Shown here: piece after piece, positions 7,794-64,000 of the stretch
Layout: each line of letters opens with the position of its first letter
Position numbering within the stretch: position 1 is the stretch's first letter
Assembly: GCA_017481875.1 (NCBI GenBank)
Contig: JAFUOP010000010.1
Location: 21,270-85,269, forward strand
DNA length: 64,000 nt
Direction: 5' to 3'
Source: Bacteroidaceae bacterium
Lineage (GTDB): Bacteria; Bacteroidota; Bacteroidia; Bacteroidales; Bacteroidaceae
Position numbers and translations under genes: made by a program
Notes under the pieces: model-generated
What the model was told of the DNA's origin: nothing
The model's input: the letters and a program-made list of their open reading frames with translations, nothing else
Databases searched by the model: none

Positions 7794-7829
7794 AAGCCTC
7801 CGTCCAAAACTGACGGAGGCTTCTTTTTG
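7794..7829 (+). terminator. Intrinsic terminator after the AsmA-like gene
   Basis: An 11-bp stem AAGCCTCCGTC/GACGGAGGCTT has a 7-base loop and is followed directly by CTTTTTG. It lies about 45 bases after the stop and separates the AsmA-like gene from the TIR gene. Confidence 0.9.
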
Positions 7830-7974: not shown

Positions 7975-8007
7975 ATTGATATTTTTTAGAATACATTATT
8001 ATCTTTG
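7975..8007 (+). promoter_or_regulatory. Bacteroidales-type promoter of the TIR-FISUMP gene
   Basis: A -7 box TATCTTTG (8000-8007) matches TAnnTTTG exactly, with ATTG (7975-7978) 21 bases upstream as a plausible -33 element. Transcription would start near 8012-8015, so the usable start is the ATG at 8026. The in-frame TTG at 8005 sits inside the promoter. The leader would be very short, about a dozen bases. Confidence 0.75.
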
Positions 8008-8025: not shown

Positions 8026-9720
8026 ATGAATAAGAAAAATAAATACGATGTTTTTATAAGTTATTCTCGCAAGGATTATGTATTTGAGAATAGAGATATA
8101 ATTCCAAAGAACAATATATCGAGAATAAAAGAGACTTTAACCAATGCCGGCATAAGTTATTGGTTTGATGAAGAATGCATTAATTACGGTGAGGATTTTA
8201 TTAACAAAGTTGTAAATAATATTAAATCCTCCAAAATATTCATTTTCTTATCAACGGAGAATGCAAATAAGTCCACATGGACTCGAAAAGAAATTTGCTG
8301 TGCCGATGAATTTAAAAAAATAATTATTCCTGTCAGAATTGATGCTACTCCGTACGATGAACGGATAATGTTCAGAATATCTGACCTCAATTATATAGAA
8401 TATTATAAAGATCCCGATAAAGCTCTTGTAGATTTGGCTGATACCATAAATAAGTATTTAGAAGAAATTGAGGAGAAGGAAAAACGCGAATTAGAGGAAG
8501 AGGAAAGAAGAAAAGAAATTGAGCGTGAAAAGGCCGAGAAGTTAAGACAGCAAAAAGAAGAGGAAGAAAAACGCAAGAAGGACGAGGAGCAACAGACCAT
8601 TGTGAAAATGCAAAGGAAATGTATGACATTGCACAATGTGGAGTCGCGTTTGGAACTTGGCCGTCAAGAGCTATTGGTAGAGATAGGATTGATAAATGAT
8701 GTAAAACTGCGCGAAGAATTAAGAGAAAAAATTATTAATGGTGGCCCTATTCACCAGAAATATCAGCAGAAATTTCGTGAATTAACTGAAAAGAGTAATA
8801 TTCCTAAGAAGTTGATTAGAGAAATAAACGACCTGCGTTCTCAAATAGAAGAAAAGAAGAAAACCACTTGGAGTATTAACAAGCATTTTTTAATAACAAT
8901 CTGTTTTGTTTTGTTTGTGGTAGGTCTGTTTTGTGGTATTATAGTTGGCGGTAAATCGCATAAAAAATTCGAAATTAAGTATATATCGGTATTAGAGGAT
9001 AGTGTCTCAGTCTATAAGGGAAAGCTTAATAGCATTATTAAGTTGCATTCTTCCGATTCTGTGAAGTTTGTACGAAAGTTGTCTTTAGTAAAAGATAGTG
9101 TTTTAATATATAAGAATGAGGCCCGCAAGCAATTGGGAATAGCTACAACTAAAGTGGTTGATTTAGGCCTTTCCGTTAAATGGGCCGGCTGGAACATAGG
9201 TGCCACAGCCCCCGAAGAGTACGGCGACTACTATGCTTGGGGTGAAACAACCACAAAGAGCGACTACTCTTGGAGTACATATATATGGTGCAAAGGAAAT
9301 GATAGTACAATGACAAAATATTGCACCAATAGTAAGTATGGAACAATGGATAAGAGAACTATTCTTGAACCCTCCGACGACGTAGCCTACGTGAAATGGG
9401 GTGGCTCTTGGCGTATGCCCACCAATGCAGAACAAGATGAGCTGTGTGAAAAATGTGAATGGGAATGGACTGCGCTTAATGGCGTGAAAGGTTACAAAGT
9501 AACCGGCCCTAGTGGCAATAGCATCTTCTTACCTGCAGCGGGCTTCCGCAACAATACAGGGCTTTATCGGAAAGGGGTGGAAGGCGTTTGTTGGTCGAGT
9601 TCGTTGTATCGCTCCACCAACTCCAAAGGTTACGTATTGTTTTTAGATAGTACTTGTTATAATGATAACCACATCTCTAACCGTTGCAATGGCCGCACGG
9701 TGCGCCCGGTGTGTAAATAA
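8026..9720 (+). CDS. TIR domain - coiled coil - transmembrane - FISUMP domain protein
   Basis: The protein has 564 residues from the ATG at 8026. Residues 6-145 form a TIR domain: YDVFISYSRKD at the start, YWFDEE, FIFLSTENA, then STWTRKEI, in which E89 occupies the place of the catalytic Glu of NAD-cleaving TIRs such as SARM1 (WVHKEI). Residues 145-200 are almost entirely E, K and R, a long charged coiled coil. One membrane helix lies near 287-308, followed by a short linker. Residues 376-564 form a FISUMP domain (Fibrobacter succinogenes major paralogous domain), with the hallmarks DLGLSVKWA, GDYYAWGE, WRMPT and the end GRTVRPVCK. No signal peptide is visible, so TIR is probably cytoplasmic and FISUMP outside. 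The gene stands alone between a terminator and a non-coding stretch. A sensor or defence role is inference. Confidence 0.85.
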   Translation: MNKKNKYDVFISYSRKDYVFENRDIIPKNNISRIKETLTNAGISYWFDEECINYGEDFINKVVNNIKSSKIFIFLSTENANKSTWTRKEICCADEFKKIIIPVRIDATPYDERIMFRISDLNYIEYYKDPDKALVDLADTINKYLEEIEEKEKRELEEEERRKEIEREKAEKLRQQKEEEEKRKKDEEQQTIVKMQRKCMTLHNVESRLELGRQELLVEIGLINDVKLREELREKIINGGPIHQKYQQKFRELTEKSNIPKKLIREINDLRSQIEEKKKTTWSINKHFLITICFVLFVVGLFCGIIVGGKSHKKFEIKYISVLEDSVSVYKGKLNSIIKLHSSDSVKFVRKLSLVKDSVLIYKNEARKQLGIATTKVVDLGLSVKWAGWNIGATAPEEYGDYYAWGETTTKSDYSWSTYIWCKGNDSTMTKYCTNSKYGTMDKRTILEPSDDVAYVKWGGSWRMPTNAEQDELCEKCEWEWTALNGVKGYKVTGPSGNSIFLPAAGFRNNTGLYRKGVEGVCWSSSLYRSTNSKGYVLFLDSTCYNDNHISNRCNGRTVRPVCK

Positions 9721-10358
9721 CAAAGTACGCTTTCACATATTCGCCCAAAAATATTGTTTTTCACGCAAAGTATCGGAAATATTGGGTGCACTTTCTTGGG
9801 TGCTGCAATTGAAATAAAATAGCTCCGTGAAAACAATGTTTACGATAAGAAATTTATTTACATAATAAATTCTTTACTTTTGCGCAAATTCTTTTCCGTG
9901 CATTGTTCCCGGCTGTTGATGTTGCTTGCTGTTATGCATAATTATTGAATTCTTATTATAATGTATTTGTAAGTAATGCGTTTGTAATTTAAAAGATAGG
10001 TTGCAGTTGTAAAAGTGTATTCTTGTTCAATACCCGTGCCTGGCTGCTTTGTTTTTGCAATCATTTTATAAATCACACATTAAGATTGCAACCCTTTTTA
10101 CCTGTTACTTTTTTGTTGAAATTAATTTACAATAGTATTGCTTTGGTTATTTCCTGCTTTCATTCTCTCTTTTACCGGTTTCGGCAAAAAAGCGTTATGC
10201 GGCTACTGTTGTTTTGCCCATAACTGCTCAAATCTTTAACTTTTACGTCTGTTATTATAATATAAATATTAAATTTTATTTGTATCTTCGCGCAAAATTA
10301 CGCGGGCGTGCACAAGAAACGCACTTGCGTTCAAGAAAAGAGAAAAGCAAAACAAGAT
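9721..10358. other. Non-coding stretch between TIR gene and lepA; possible small RNA
   Basis: No convincing gene is present; a 66-codon frame at 10023-10223 has neither recognisable motifs nor a ribosome binding site. What can be seen: an inverted repeat ATTGTTTTTCACG (9753-9765) with CGTGAAAACAAT (9826-9837); a -7-like TACTTTTG at 9875-9882; and an inverted repeat TTGCAATC (10055-10062)/GATTGCAA (10084-10091) followed by CCCTTTTT. Together these could bracket a small RNA of about 200 bases. The lepA promoter lies at the right end. Confidence 0.4.
10283..10290 (+). promoter_or_regulatory. -7 box of the lepA promoter (TATCTTCG)
   Basis: TATCTTCG differs from TAnnTTTG at one position. It lies 68 bases before the preferred lepA start and is followed by the GCGCAAAA context often seen next to such boxes. 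No clear -33 TTTG is visible. Confidence 0.5.
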
Positions 10359-12140
10359 ATGGAAAAAATTAGGAATTTTTGCATTATAGCACATATAGAC
10401 CACGGTAAATCAACCTTGGCCGACCGCTTGTTGGAAACAACCAAGACTATAAACATTACCGAGGGACAGATGCTCGATAATATGGACCTGGAGAAGGAGC
10501 GCGGTATCACCATTAAGAGCCACGCTATTCAAATGGAGTATATGTATGAGGGTGAGAAATACACGCTTAACCTCATTGACACTCCGGGGCACGTCGATTT
10601 TTCGTACGAGGTGTCGCGCTCAATTGCTGCTTGCGAGGGTGCTTTGCTGGTGGTAGATGCCACACAGGGTGTGCAAGCACAGACAATCTCAAACCTTTAT
10701 ATGGCTGTGGACCAGGGGCTGGAGATTATCCCCGTGATTAACAAGTGCGACATGATTAACGCAATGCCCGAGGAGGTGAAAGATGAGATTGTCGATTTGA
10801 TAGGTTGCGACCGCGACGAGATTATTGAGGCAAGCGGAAAGACCGGTATGGGCGTGGAGGAGATTCTGCGTGCGGTGGTGGAGCGAATTCCGGCTCCCGC
10901 GGGCGACGAAGAAGCTCCTTTGCAGGCACTCATCTTCGACTCTGTGTTTAATTCGTTCCGTGGTATCATTGCATATTTTAAGATTACAAACGGTGTGTTG
11001 CGCAAGGGCGACAAAGTGAAGTTCTTCAACACGGGCAAGGAGTACGATGCCGACGAGATTGGTGTTTTGAAGATGGATCTATCGCCACGTCAGGAGTTGC
11101 GCACCGGAGATGTAGGCTACATTATTTCGGGTATAAAGACATCGCGTGAGGTGAAGGTGGGCGACACCATTACTCACATTGCAAGGCCCTGCACGGCTGC
11201 TATTGCCGGCTTTGAAGAGGTGAAGCCTATGGTGTTTGCCGGTGTATATCCCATTGAGGCCGAGGATTACGAGGACCTGCGTGCATCACTCGAAAAATTG
11301 CAGTTGAACGATGCGTCGCTCACATTCAGCCCCGAATCGTCGGCGGCATTAGGCTTTGGTTTCCGTTGCGGTTTCTTGGGCCTGTTGCACATGGAGATTG
11401 TTCAAGAACGCTTGGACCGTGAGTTTGATATGAGTGTTATTACAACAGTGCCCAATGTGTCGTATATGGTATATGACAAGCAAGGAACTGCACAGGAGGT
11501 GCATAACCCCGGTGGTATGCCCGACCAAACACTGATTGACCACATTGAGGAGCCTTACATAAATGCAAGCATAATCACACGTGCCGAGTACATAGGCCCT
11601 ATTATGACTTTGTGCTTGTCGAAGCGTGGTGAATTGCAGAAGCAGGAGTTTATTACCGGTAACCGTGTGGATATACGTTTCTTGTTGCCGCTTGGAGAAA
11701 TTGTGATAGATTTTTATGATAAACTAAAGAGTATTTCAAAGGGCTATGCTTCGTTCGACTATCACCCTGCAGGTTTCCGCACATCGAAGCTCATTAAACT
11801 CGATATACTTTTGAACGGTGAGCCGGTAGATGCTCTTTCCACACTTACCCACGTAGATAATGCATACGGGCTTGGCCGTCAGATGTGCGAAAAACTGCGC
11901 GACCTTATCCCTCGCCAGCAGTTCGACATTGCTCTGCAGGCTGCAATAGGTACAAAGATTATTGCTCGCGAGACAATTAAACAGGTGCGCAAGGACGTAA
12001 CAGCAAAGTGCTACGGTGGAGACGTGTCGCGTAAACGTAAATTGCTCGAAAAACAGAAAAAGGGCAAAAAGCGTATGAAGCAAATTGGTAATGTGGAGGT
12101 GCCGCAGAAAGCCTTCCTTGCCGTTCTGAAACTCGACTAA
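10359..12140 (+). CDS. lepA: Elongation factor 4 (LepA), ribosome back-translocase GTPase
   Basis: The protein is 593 residues, the usual LepA length. It begins [19 protein letters not shown], containing the G1 P-loop; a GTG 51 bases upstream is in frame but adds a basic stretch absent from the family. Other GTPase motifs are RGITIK (G2), DTPGH (G3) and NKCD (G4). The LepA-specific C-terminal domain includes [32 protein letters not shown] and the signature [20 protein letters not shown]. LepA acts on stalled or pre-translocation ribosomes in the cytoplasm. It heads a run of translation and protein-targeting genes (ftsY, rimO). Confidence 0.97.
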
Positions 12141-46325: not shown

Positions 46326-46356
46326 AATATTGTGTGTTATTATAAGTTTTTGTTGT

Positions 46357-46636
46357 TTTCGCAGTCGTTGTTTTGCAAAGATAGTGCCAACGAGCAAATA
46401 GCAAAGTTTACTTTGGCTATTTACTGCGAGTGCAGCCTATTTTCGCAGTCGTTAGTTGACAAAGATAGTGCCAACGAGCGAATAGCAAAGTTTACTTTGG
46501 CTATTTACCGCGAGTGCAGCCTATTTTCGCAGTCGTTAGTTGACAAAGATAGTGCCAACGAGCAAATAGCAAAGTTTACTTTGGCTATTTACTGCGAGTG
46601 CAGCCTATTTTCGCAATCGTAGATTGCAAAGTTATC
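46357..46636. repeat. Tandem 84-bp repeat array (3 full copies and a partial) upstream of nagA
   Basis: Units lie at 46357-46440, 46441-46524 and 46525-46608, with a diverged partial at 46609-46636. Copies 2 and 3 differ at only two positions (GCGAAT/GCAAAT and CCG/CTG); copy 1 differs mainly in CGTTGTTTTG versus CGTTAGTTGA. Each unit holds an imperfect inverted repeat (AAATAGCAAAGT..ACTTTGGCTATTT) and a complete minus-strand promoter. Because 84 is divisible by 3, a long open frame crosses the array on the + strand; it is an artefact. Confidence 0.95.
46376..46634 (-). promoter_or_regulatory. Multiplied nagA promoter: three complete boxes plus a fourth -7 box
   Basis: On the minus strand each 84-bp unit carries -33 TTTG (46402-46405 in unit 1), an 18-base spacer, then -7 TATCTTTG at 46376-46383, 46460-46467 and 46544-46551. 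The distal partial unit has TAACTTTG at 46627-46634 without a clear -33. All point toward nagA, whose ATG is at 46325; the proximal start would give a leader of about 40 bases. Confidence 0.8.
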
Positions 46637-63281: not shown

Positions 63282-64000
63282 ATGAGAACAGCAAAACAAC
63301 TGTTGATAACAGTAGCAGTGCTGCTTTGCAGCACTGTGGCAAGTGCCCACGACTTTGAGGTGGGTGGTATTTACTACAACATTATCTCTTCGAGATTTTT
63401 AACCGTAGAGGTAACACATAAAGGAAGTAGTTGGGGGGAATATAGTGGCAAGCTTGTTATACCCGAAACAGTAACCTACAAGTCAAAAACTTACCGCGTA
63501 ACAACTATTGGAAGCATTGCGTTCGATGAATGCACCGGCCTTATAAGCATTACAATACCCAATAGCGTAACAACTATTGGAAGCAGTGCGTTCAGTGGTT
63601 GCACCGGCCTTACAAGCGTAACAATCCCCAATAGCGTAACAACTATTGGAGAGTATGCGTTCTGTGGTTGCACAGGCCTTACAAGCATTACTATAGGCAA
63701 CAGCGTAACTACTATTGGAAGCGGTGCGTTCTTGAATTGCACCGGCCTTACAAGCATTACTATAGGCAACAGCGTAACTACTATTGGAAGCGGTGCGTTC
63801 TTGAATTGCACCGGCCTTACAAGCATTACAATACCGGGTAGCGTAACAACTATTGGAAGCATTGCGTTCGGGGAATGCACCGGCCTTACAAGCGTAACAA
63901 TCCCCAATAGCGTAACAACGATTGAAAGCTATGCGTTCTCTGGTTGCACCGGCCTTACAAGCGTAACAATCCCCAACAGCGTAACAACTATTGGTGACTA
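63282..64000 (+). CDS. BspA-like leucine-rich repeat protein, cut by the right window edge
   Basis: Only 239 codons are visible. A signal peptide ([23 protein letters not shown]) is followed by [14 protein letters not shown], the usual BspA N-terminus, then at least seven 23-residue LRR_5 units of the form [23 protein letters not shown]. Two adjacent 69-bp units (63675-63743 and 63744-63812) are identical, so the repeat number may be variable. The antisense frame with MLVRPVQ repeats is a shadow. The repeat domain is secreted or surface-exposed and may mediate adhesion. Confidence 0.93.
63500..64000 (+). repeat. 69-bp tandem LRR-coding repeats
   Basis: The 69-bp period (23 codons) repeats at least seven times to the window end, with one perfectly duplicated unit pair (63675-63743, 63744-63812). 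Consensus words are ACCGGCCTTACAAGC and GTAACAACTATTGG. Confidence 0.95.

Follow-up and report, generated by a model that had tools for sequence, protein, structure and literature searches.

In Toll-like receptors a single membrane helix connects the ligand-binding ectodomain to the TIR domain in the cytoplasm (PMC7075850). TIR NADases are also found in bacterial immunity, as in the TIR-APAZ protein of SPARTA (PMC10474274) and in SpbK (PMC12847820), and in FGS/STAND systems (PMC8195603) and among the Thiohalocapsa DGR sensors (PMC10907252) lectin-fold domains are proposed invader sensors coupled to TIR and other effectors. In cyanobacteria, the variable proteins of diversity-generating retroelements (DGRs) join a signalling domain, with TIR-like domains among the rarer ones, to a C-terminal DGR-diversified C-type lectin domain; they are mostly cytosolic, few having membrane helices or signal peptides (PMC7517822). 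Some lectin domains of the Thiohalocapsa DGR sensors are placed in the periplasm (PMC10907252). Here we describe a 564-residue protein of a Bacteroidaceae bacterium (GCA_017481875.1), encoded in a stretch of 64,000 nucleotides (the window; contig JAFUOP010000010.1, positions 21,270-85,269), in which, as in Toll-like receptors, one membrane helix lies between a TIR domain and a putative ligand-binding domain. Its frame opens with an ATG at window position 8026 and codes to 9717, with the stop codon at 9718-9720.

Our tentative reading, which we hold to be nearly evenly balanced, is that of a one-gene membrane sensor-effector, with a cytoplasmic NADase-type TIR domain and an outward, ligand-clustered lectin-fold domain. 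The N-terminal TIR domain would lie in the cytoplasm, where clustered copies would cut NAD+ through glutamate 89 (E89), so that NAD+ is depleted or an ADP-ribose signal arises. The charged helix would serve as a rigid spacer and the helix at residues 288-309 would span the inner membrane, while the C-terminal domain, in the periplasm or near the surface, would bind its ligand via the variable face used by Mtd-type proteins, the resulting clustering activating the TIR domain. The gene would have been acquired as a lone insert, its C-terminal domain coming from a family diversified by DGRs in the same genus. Ligand binding, activation by clustering, NADase activity and a role in defence are what we infer for this protein. 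A preliminary description of the sequence had likewise proposed a surface-sensing NADase; that proposal is supported in part. The TIR domain, membrane helix, E89 and solitary gene of the description hold; its FISUMP and coiled-coil assignments needed correction.

The TIR domain and the architecture of the protein

The TIR_2 profile matches residues 9-132 (E 2.5e-15, 57.4 bits against a curated cut-off of 28), and the Pfam TIR profile also scores above its curated cut-off (24.5 against 21.3 bits). An AlphaFold model of residues 1-152 reached a predicted local distance difference test score of 93.3, and a structure search with this model returned TIR structures, NAD-bound RUN1 being the first match. 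E89 is invariant in the 11 rows of one alignment and in the 48 rows of aligned relatives in a larger one. It aligns to the glutamate of WTNYE in AbTIR and to residue 77 of SPARTA-type TIR NADase chains, as counted from alignments that do not contain the chain of PMC10474274, the paper in which E77A is the catalytic mutant of SPARTA. E89 is predicted to be the catalytic glutamate of an NADase-type TIR domain, which agrees with the role first proposed for it.

The PADLOC ThsB model also matches the TIR domain (E 7.7e-7); the Pfam ThsB_TIR model stays below its cut-off (17 against 21.2 bits), and weak matches to Retron_TIR (2.9e-10) and Thoeris ThcB4 (2e-6) lie far below theirs. Membership of Thoeris was rejected, the genes beside the TIR gene reading as AsmA-like and lepA and not as a ThsA partner. 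A STALD search of the protein's own genome gave no match, and neither did its controls.

When the whole protein was searched against 301 family genomes, 201 gave matches, nearly always within the lectin domain, and no other full-length match was among those listed; with the N-terminal 365 residues as query, 37 of 399 family genomes matched, the protein's own included (E<=0.001). Architectures were counted in TIR loci picked by likeness to this TIR domain: 30 from the family search (own included), the top 80 of 169 from named genomes (assemblies mainly of Bacteroidota, many from ruminant guts), one viral locus and seven longer stretches. With open reading frames below 150 codons dropped and rows sharing the same last 60 residues collapsed, 30 of 152 distinct TIR proteins (10 of the 152 running off the locus end) finish in a lectin-type domain, as called with small custom profiles: 14 FGE, 10 Lcl-like (profile built from two sequences) and 6 FISUMP-like, the last being the fusion whose spread the preliminary description had asked about. 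A membrane helix lies between the TIR and lectin domains in 11 of the 30 (3 FISUMP-like, 3 FGE and 5 Lcl-like) and is absent in 19. The order TIR, membrane helix, lectin domain is thus shared by 10 further proteins, among them L063 of the same genus.

That the TIR-FISUMP fusions arose separately is unproven: the domain tree is weak, with 24 of 42 inner branches open, and an approximately unbiased test did not reject one clade (p 0.186), the group tested being five rows, with L121, which lacks the searched motif, left without a TIR label. Single-sequence scans of viral contigs with the TIR part and with the lectin part gave no match, the TIR alignment found one remote hit only in them, and among phage and plasmid records 7 and 2 matched, none with a place covering 80%. 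Several Bacteroidota loci (L128, L129, L132, L148, L172 and others) hold two to four adjoining TIR genes with varied C-terminal modules (FGE, Sel1-like repeats, membrane helices). By sequence reading, TIR domains are also fused to an apparent Hsp70 tail (L054) and to a macro-like domain (L050, L052).

Residues 137-200 had been described as a coiled coil. This did not hold up: despite their 61% of E, K and R residues, a crude custom shuffle test found no significant heptad pattern (p 0.51; five other stretches gave p 0.08-0.51), and because of this a single charged helix is as likely as a coiled coil. The membrane helix is clear, with a Kyte-Doolittle mean of 3.06 over 19 residues in its core, and the chain, by sequence reading, begins with the TIR domain and has no signal peptide; on both points the first description was right. 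With one membrane helix and no N-terminal signal, a cytoplasmic N-terminus would put the C-terminus outside, and we infer a topology with the TIR domain inside and the lectin-type domain outside.

In the 11 proteins of the order TIR, membrane helix, lectin domain, the net positive charge of the 15 residues before the helix is greater than that of the 15 after it in nine and smaller in none, a bias that argues for this topology in the class; the charges are tied in the 564-residue protein and in L121. This tie, and the 19 of 30 TIR-lectin proteins without a membrane helix, would suit a lectin-fold domain that is cytoplasmic, or one with intracellular invader molecules as its ligands, a role that has been proposed for the lectin domains of FGS systems (PMC8195603). 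We regard that as unlikely; it sits poorly with the single helix and absent signal, and the closest relatives point the other way, since those without a TIR domain, several of them exported by sequence reading, are 50-63% identical to the C-terminal domain as against 35-48% for the TIR-fused ones in the same alignment. By sequence reading, some of these non-TIR relatives start with a signal-like or lipoprotein-like peptide (e.g. L002, L004, L013). One protein of the same genus combines, in this order, a kinase, a membrane helix, PEGA and a lectin domain. Cys422 and Cys433 co-occur in 15 of 23 aligned domains, that of the 564-residue protein included, and in none of the four other TIR-fused ones there; the cysteine count was dropped as a topology marker, the set without a helix giving 11/19.

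The C-terminal domain had been assigned to FISUMP. The NCBIfam model TIGR02145 (FISUMP) has no match in the protein at E<=1, and the domain alone matches only Lcl_C (PF07603, DUF1566; E 0.006), where its 17.3 bits fall short of the cut-off of 34.9. In an alignment of 23 rows that includes this domain, however, Lcl_C matches all 23 and TIGR02145 nine at E<=0.1 (best 4.1e-5); FISUMP-like would be a fair label, while the stricter assignment is not sustained. A C-type lectin fold is proposed for the domain with moderate confidence. A search of the PDB with the FISUMP-like profile found nothing at E<=1, PHROGs gave four stray families only, and Foldseek alone on the domain model had no useful outcome, a family missing from its match list not being thereby excluded. 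The Prevotella megaphages Lak-A1, Lak-A2 and Lak-C1 (hits H2-H7) contain a stretch like the lectin domain, with 36.6% identity over residues 376-506.

DGRs diversify the lectin-type domain family in the genus

A DGR is recognised by changes that are restricted to the adenines of its template. RVT_1 matches occur in 18 of 44 genus genomes, and among the stretches round 14 of these matches, which were read for DGRs, two have a FISUMP-like domain as target. In genome G172 (L289) the order is target, 168-residue gene, Avd-like gene, template and reverse transcriptase; G318 (L301) has the same order, its target gene being cut by the contig end. Both Avd-like proteins match NF033474 (DGR protein Avd; 3e-11 and 1.4e-12), below the model cut-off. 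Target and template differ at 27 of 57 adenines and 0 of 129 other bases in G172 and at 24 of 60 and 0 of 123 in G318. The TIR fusion L112 comes from G410 (DGR at G410:C65), where the counts are 22 of 56 and 2 of 118. With changes thus confined to template adenines, the FISUMP-like domain family of this genus is diversified by DGRs, and that DGRs target the C-terminal domain type of the 564-residue protein in its own genus is new here. Codon endings show a bias in the same region: over 23 rows, the 23 most variable columns of the C-terminal part of the domain contain 329 C- and 108 T-ending codons, compared with 1043 and 946 elsewhere in the domain (odds ratio 2.7, p 3e-17). For the conserved columns of the C-terminal part the counts are 117 and 99.

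Template bias was tested for 26 sequences against the G172 and G318 templates, those available for the 564-residue protein all coming from other genomes. It differs from the G172 template at 30 of 57 adenines and 47 of 129 other sites (one-sided p 0.029) and shows no adenine bias against G318 or G410 (p 0.37 and p 0.27). Its variable segment has no enrichment of C-ending codons (p 0.19), and neither a reverse transcriptase nor a DGR template was found in its 75.8%-complete genome. The 47 non-adenine changes, the codon result and the missing reverse transcriptase do not support the protein as an active DGR target. Any DGR signature appears faded at most and diversification at least not recent, because the paralogue L002 in the same genome differs from G172 at only 13 of 128 other sites; in L002 the adenine bias is clear (19/55 against 13/128, p 1.4e-4), and in the own-genome copies L003 and L004 there is none (p 0.23 and 0.14).

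In the C-ending codon test, two of the 30 TIR-lectin proteins stay significant after Bonferroni correction: L112 (p 7e-6) and L181 (p 8e-4). Each is a FISUMP-like fusion that lacks a membrane helix. Another four reach nominal significance (p 0.01-0.05), and L059, L063 and L121 give no signal. L181 has an adenine bias whichever of the three templates is used (G318, 30/58 against 28/122, p 1.3e-4; G172, p 0.015; G410, p 0.009). L112 has one against G318 only (p 0.011; G172, p 0.085); because it has none against the template of its own genome (G410, p 0.11), that template does not appear to have written it lately. That some TIR fusions carry domain copies with a DGR signature is supported by these comparisons. 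The fetched TIR loci contain no match to the G318 reverse transcriptase or the two Avd proteins (phmmer, E<=1e-4). The five commonest DGR target domains of the human microbiome include DUF1566 (47), FGE-sulfatase (42) and Fib_succ_major (9, level with two others) (PMC4159848), the same three classes as the Lcl-like, FGE and FISUMP-like lectin subtypes of the TIR fusions.

A wider conjecture, possible but doubtful, is that Bacteroidota have a one-gene Toll-like class in which an NADase-type TIR domain, often across a membrane, is combined with lectin domains from the DGR pool, so that a cell could diversify anew the binding face of an innate immune receptor; the 564-residue protein would be a membrane-spanning member whose face is at present fixed or fading.

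Other members of the domain family were seen in passing. G287 encodes two adjoining proteins of the order kinase, membrane helix, FISUMP-like domain (L198:7572-9845 and 9917-11962), the first with Pkinase and PEGA matches and the second assigned by likeness; the domain of the first (L035) has an adenine bias against G318 (p 7.7e-4) and not against G172 (p 0.12). Four DGRs that read as prophage-like (L291-L294; G342, G403, G200 and G405) each have two Lcl-like genes and a reverse transcriptase, and in three of them an Avd-like gene was recognised by eye.

Genomic setting of the TIR gene

The gene lies between an AsmA-like gene and lepA (these names, and the VWA label below, are sequence readings without Pfam or NCBIfam assignment). 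Stretches behind the AsmA-like gene were compared in 14 of the 24 other genus genomes that match it. In 10 of the 14 (L100-L109) lepA follows directly; L099 has a 1259-residue protein in between, and the three closest genomes (L096-L098) have other cargo, without lepA in the 5.3-7.7 kb read. Since the two genes adjoin in most genomes and other cargo stands there elsewhere, the TIR gene is a lone accessory insert at a variable site. It is also a single complete gene, as first described, with an open 564-codon frame and no companion insert. The genome has no second TIR_2 match that we could find, and three other copies of the lectin-type domain.

According to Pfam, the cargo in G334 (L096:500-2812) comprises a cytidylyltransferase fused to NADAR, a separate NADAR gene and a Nudix gene of the NrtR type; by likeness, G116 (L097) has the same cargo. 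These two nearest genomes thus carry an NAD/ADP-ribose cassette where this one has the TIR gene. Beyond the G334 cassette the end of the AsmA-like gene occurs a second time (L096:3644-3982), about 3.3 kb behind the first copy.

Neighbours of housekeeping type, with no defence gene directly adjoining, would also be expected of an envelope-stress or regulatory receptor, in which the lectin domain senses the cell's own cell-wall or surface glycans and the TIR domain serves as a scaffold or sends a mild signal, defence playing no part; the same-genus kinase joined to the same kind of domain through a membrane helix shows it in ordinary-looking signalling too. We consider this possible though rather improbable. 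The invariance of E89 in all 48 relatives and the patchy occurrence of the N-terminal part (37 of 399 genomes) argue against it, as do some relatives located in islands with VWA-like genes (by sequence reading), a kinase and further TIR genes (L191, L192, L197), where Pfam supports the kinase and one TIR-FGE protein.

Base composition differs along the gene. Residues 1-372 are encoded with a GC content of 32.9% (33.6% at third codon positions, GC3) and the lectin part with 46.7% (GC3 47.4%), compared with 45.5% (GC3 48.6%) in the AsmA-like gene. Stratified by amino acid, codon use of the TIR part departs from AsmA (odds ratio 0.51, p 2e-6) and lepA (0.36, p 2e-12), and that of the lectin part departs from lepA (0.64, p 0.007) and not from AsmA (p 0.26). 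These values suggest a foreign gene for TIR domain and membrane helix joined to a native lectin-type domain. Such a join could be a fusion that has decayed or arose by chance, with an AT-rich TIR gene standing before the end of a native lectin-domain gene and the product unselected; the GC3 step at residue 373, the faded DGR signature and the lack of another full-length match among those listed in the family search would all fit. We think this quite improbable, as the frame is open over 564 codons with E89 intact, the order of parts recurs in 10 other proteins across three lectin subtypes, L063 of the same genus among them, and, stratified by amino acid, the step within the gene lacks significance (1.43, p 0.07).

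The preliminary description had also given the gene its own promoter. The pair TTG / TATCTTTG upstream resembles the Bacteroidota -33/-7 boxes and is a candidate. A sigma-70-type scan lists TTGATA-18-TATCTT among its sites; with 7 sites found against 9.8 expected from shuffles there is no excess, and therefore the scan is no evidence for a promoter. Terminator-like hairpins show no overall excess either (2 found, 1.9 expected by chance). Elsewhere in the window are tandem repeats at 46356-46620 (84 bases, 3.2 copies) and 63496-63994 (69 bases, 7.2 copies), the latter reading like a leucine-rich surface protein.

Table 1. Features of the TIR-lectin gene and its upstream region (window coordinates).
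Feature	Position	Strand	Basis
TIR - charged helix - membrane helix - lectin-fold protein, 564 aa	8026..9720	+	open frame
TIR domain, residues 1-136	8026..8433	+	Pfam TIR_2, AlphaFold model, structure matches
E89 (GAA), predicted catalytic glutamate, within WTRKE	8290..8292	+	conservation and alignment
Highly charged helix, residues 137-200, 61% E/K/R	8434..8625	+	composition; without heptad signal
Membrane helix, residues 288-309	8887..8952	+	hydropathy
Predicted extracytoplasmic linker, residues 310-372	8953..9141	+	last part modelled as helix, lower confidence
FISUMP/Lcl_C-like domain, probable C-type lectin fold, residues 373-564	9142..9717	+	
Segment matching DGR variable region of relatives, residues 502-564	9529..9717	+	template comparison
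Candidate promoter: TTG, 21 bases, TATCTTTG	7976..8007	+	sequence reading
Terminator-like hairpin, 11 pairs, behind upstream AsmA-like gene	7794..7822	+	hairpin scan

Comparison with known systems

We found no literature joining the terms TIR domain and FISUMP. The passages of PMC7159879, PMC8195603, PMC10907252, PMC7517822 and PMC7824862 deal with lectin-fold sensors of conflict systems that comprise several genes, and with TIR-like domains carried by cyanobacterial DGR proteins; a Bacteroidota protein of the order TIR, membrane helix, lectin domain is absent from these passages, as from the titles and abstract beginnings of further literature listings.

Compared with Toll-like receptors, the 564-residue protein is reversed, its TIR domain coming first (type II if the N-terminus is inside); it has a lectin-fold and not a leucine-rich ectodomain, Pfam finding no leucine-rich repeat match in it, and its TIR domain is predicted to be of the NADase type. 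Common descent of the two architectures is not implied. Similarity of the C-terminal domain to FISUMP (TIGR02145) and Lcl_C (PF07603, DUF1566), both DGR targets (PMC4159848), is distant; the present domain is below cut-off or without a match, and is fused to a TIR domain and a membrane helix. Unlike the cyanobacterial DGR proteins, this one belongs to the Bacteroidota, has a helix between its TIR and lectin domains and a domain of Lcl/FISUMP type, and shows no recent diversification. The FGS/STAND and Thiohalocapsa systems are multi-gene, with an NTPase or MoxR-vWA, whereas effector and sensor are here parts of one chain from one lone gene.

The catalytic glutamate of SPARTA aligns with E89, but SPARTA is activated by target DNA and SpbK interacts with a phage protein, and the passages of PMC10474274 and PMC12847820 describe an outward domain for neither. 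Both respond to invader molecules within the cell. If the tentative reading is true, a TIR NADase with an outward lectin domain would be a surface receptor of bacteria that is coupled to an immune-type effector, and the link to DGR target domains makes it directly testable in Bacteroidales whether bacteria hypermutate an innate receptor.
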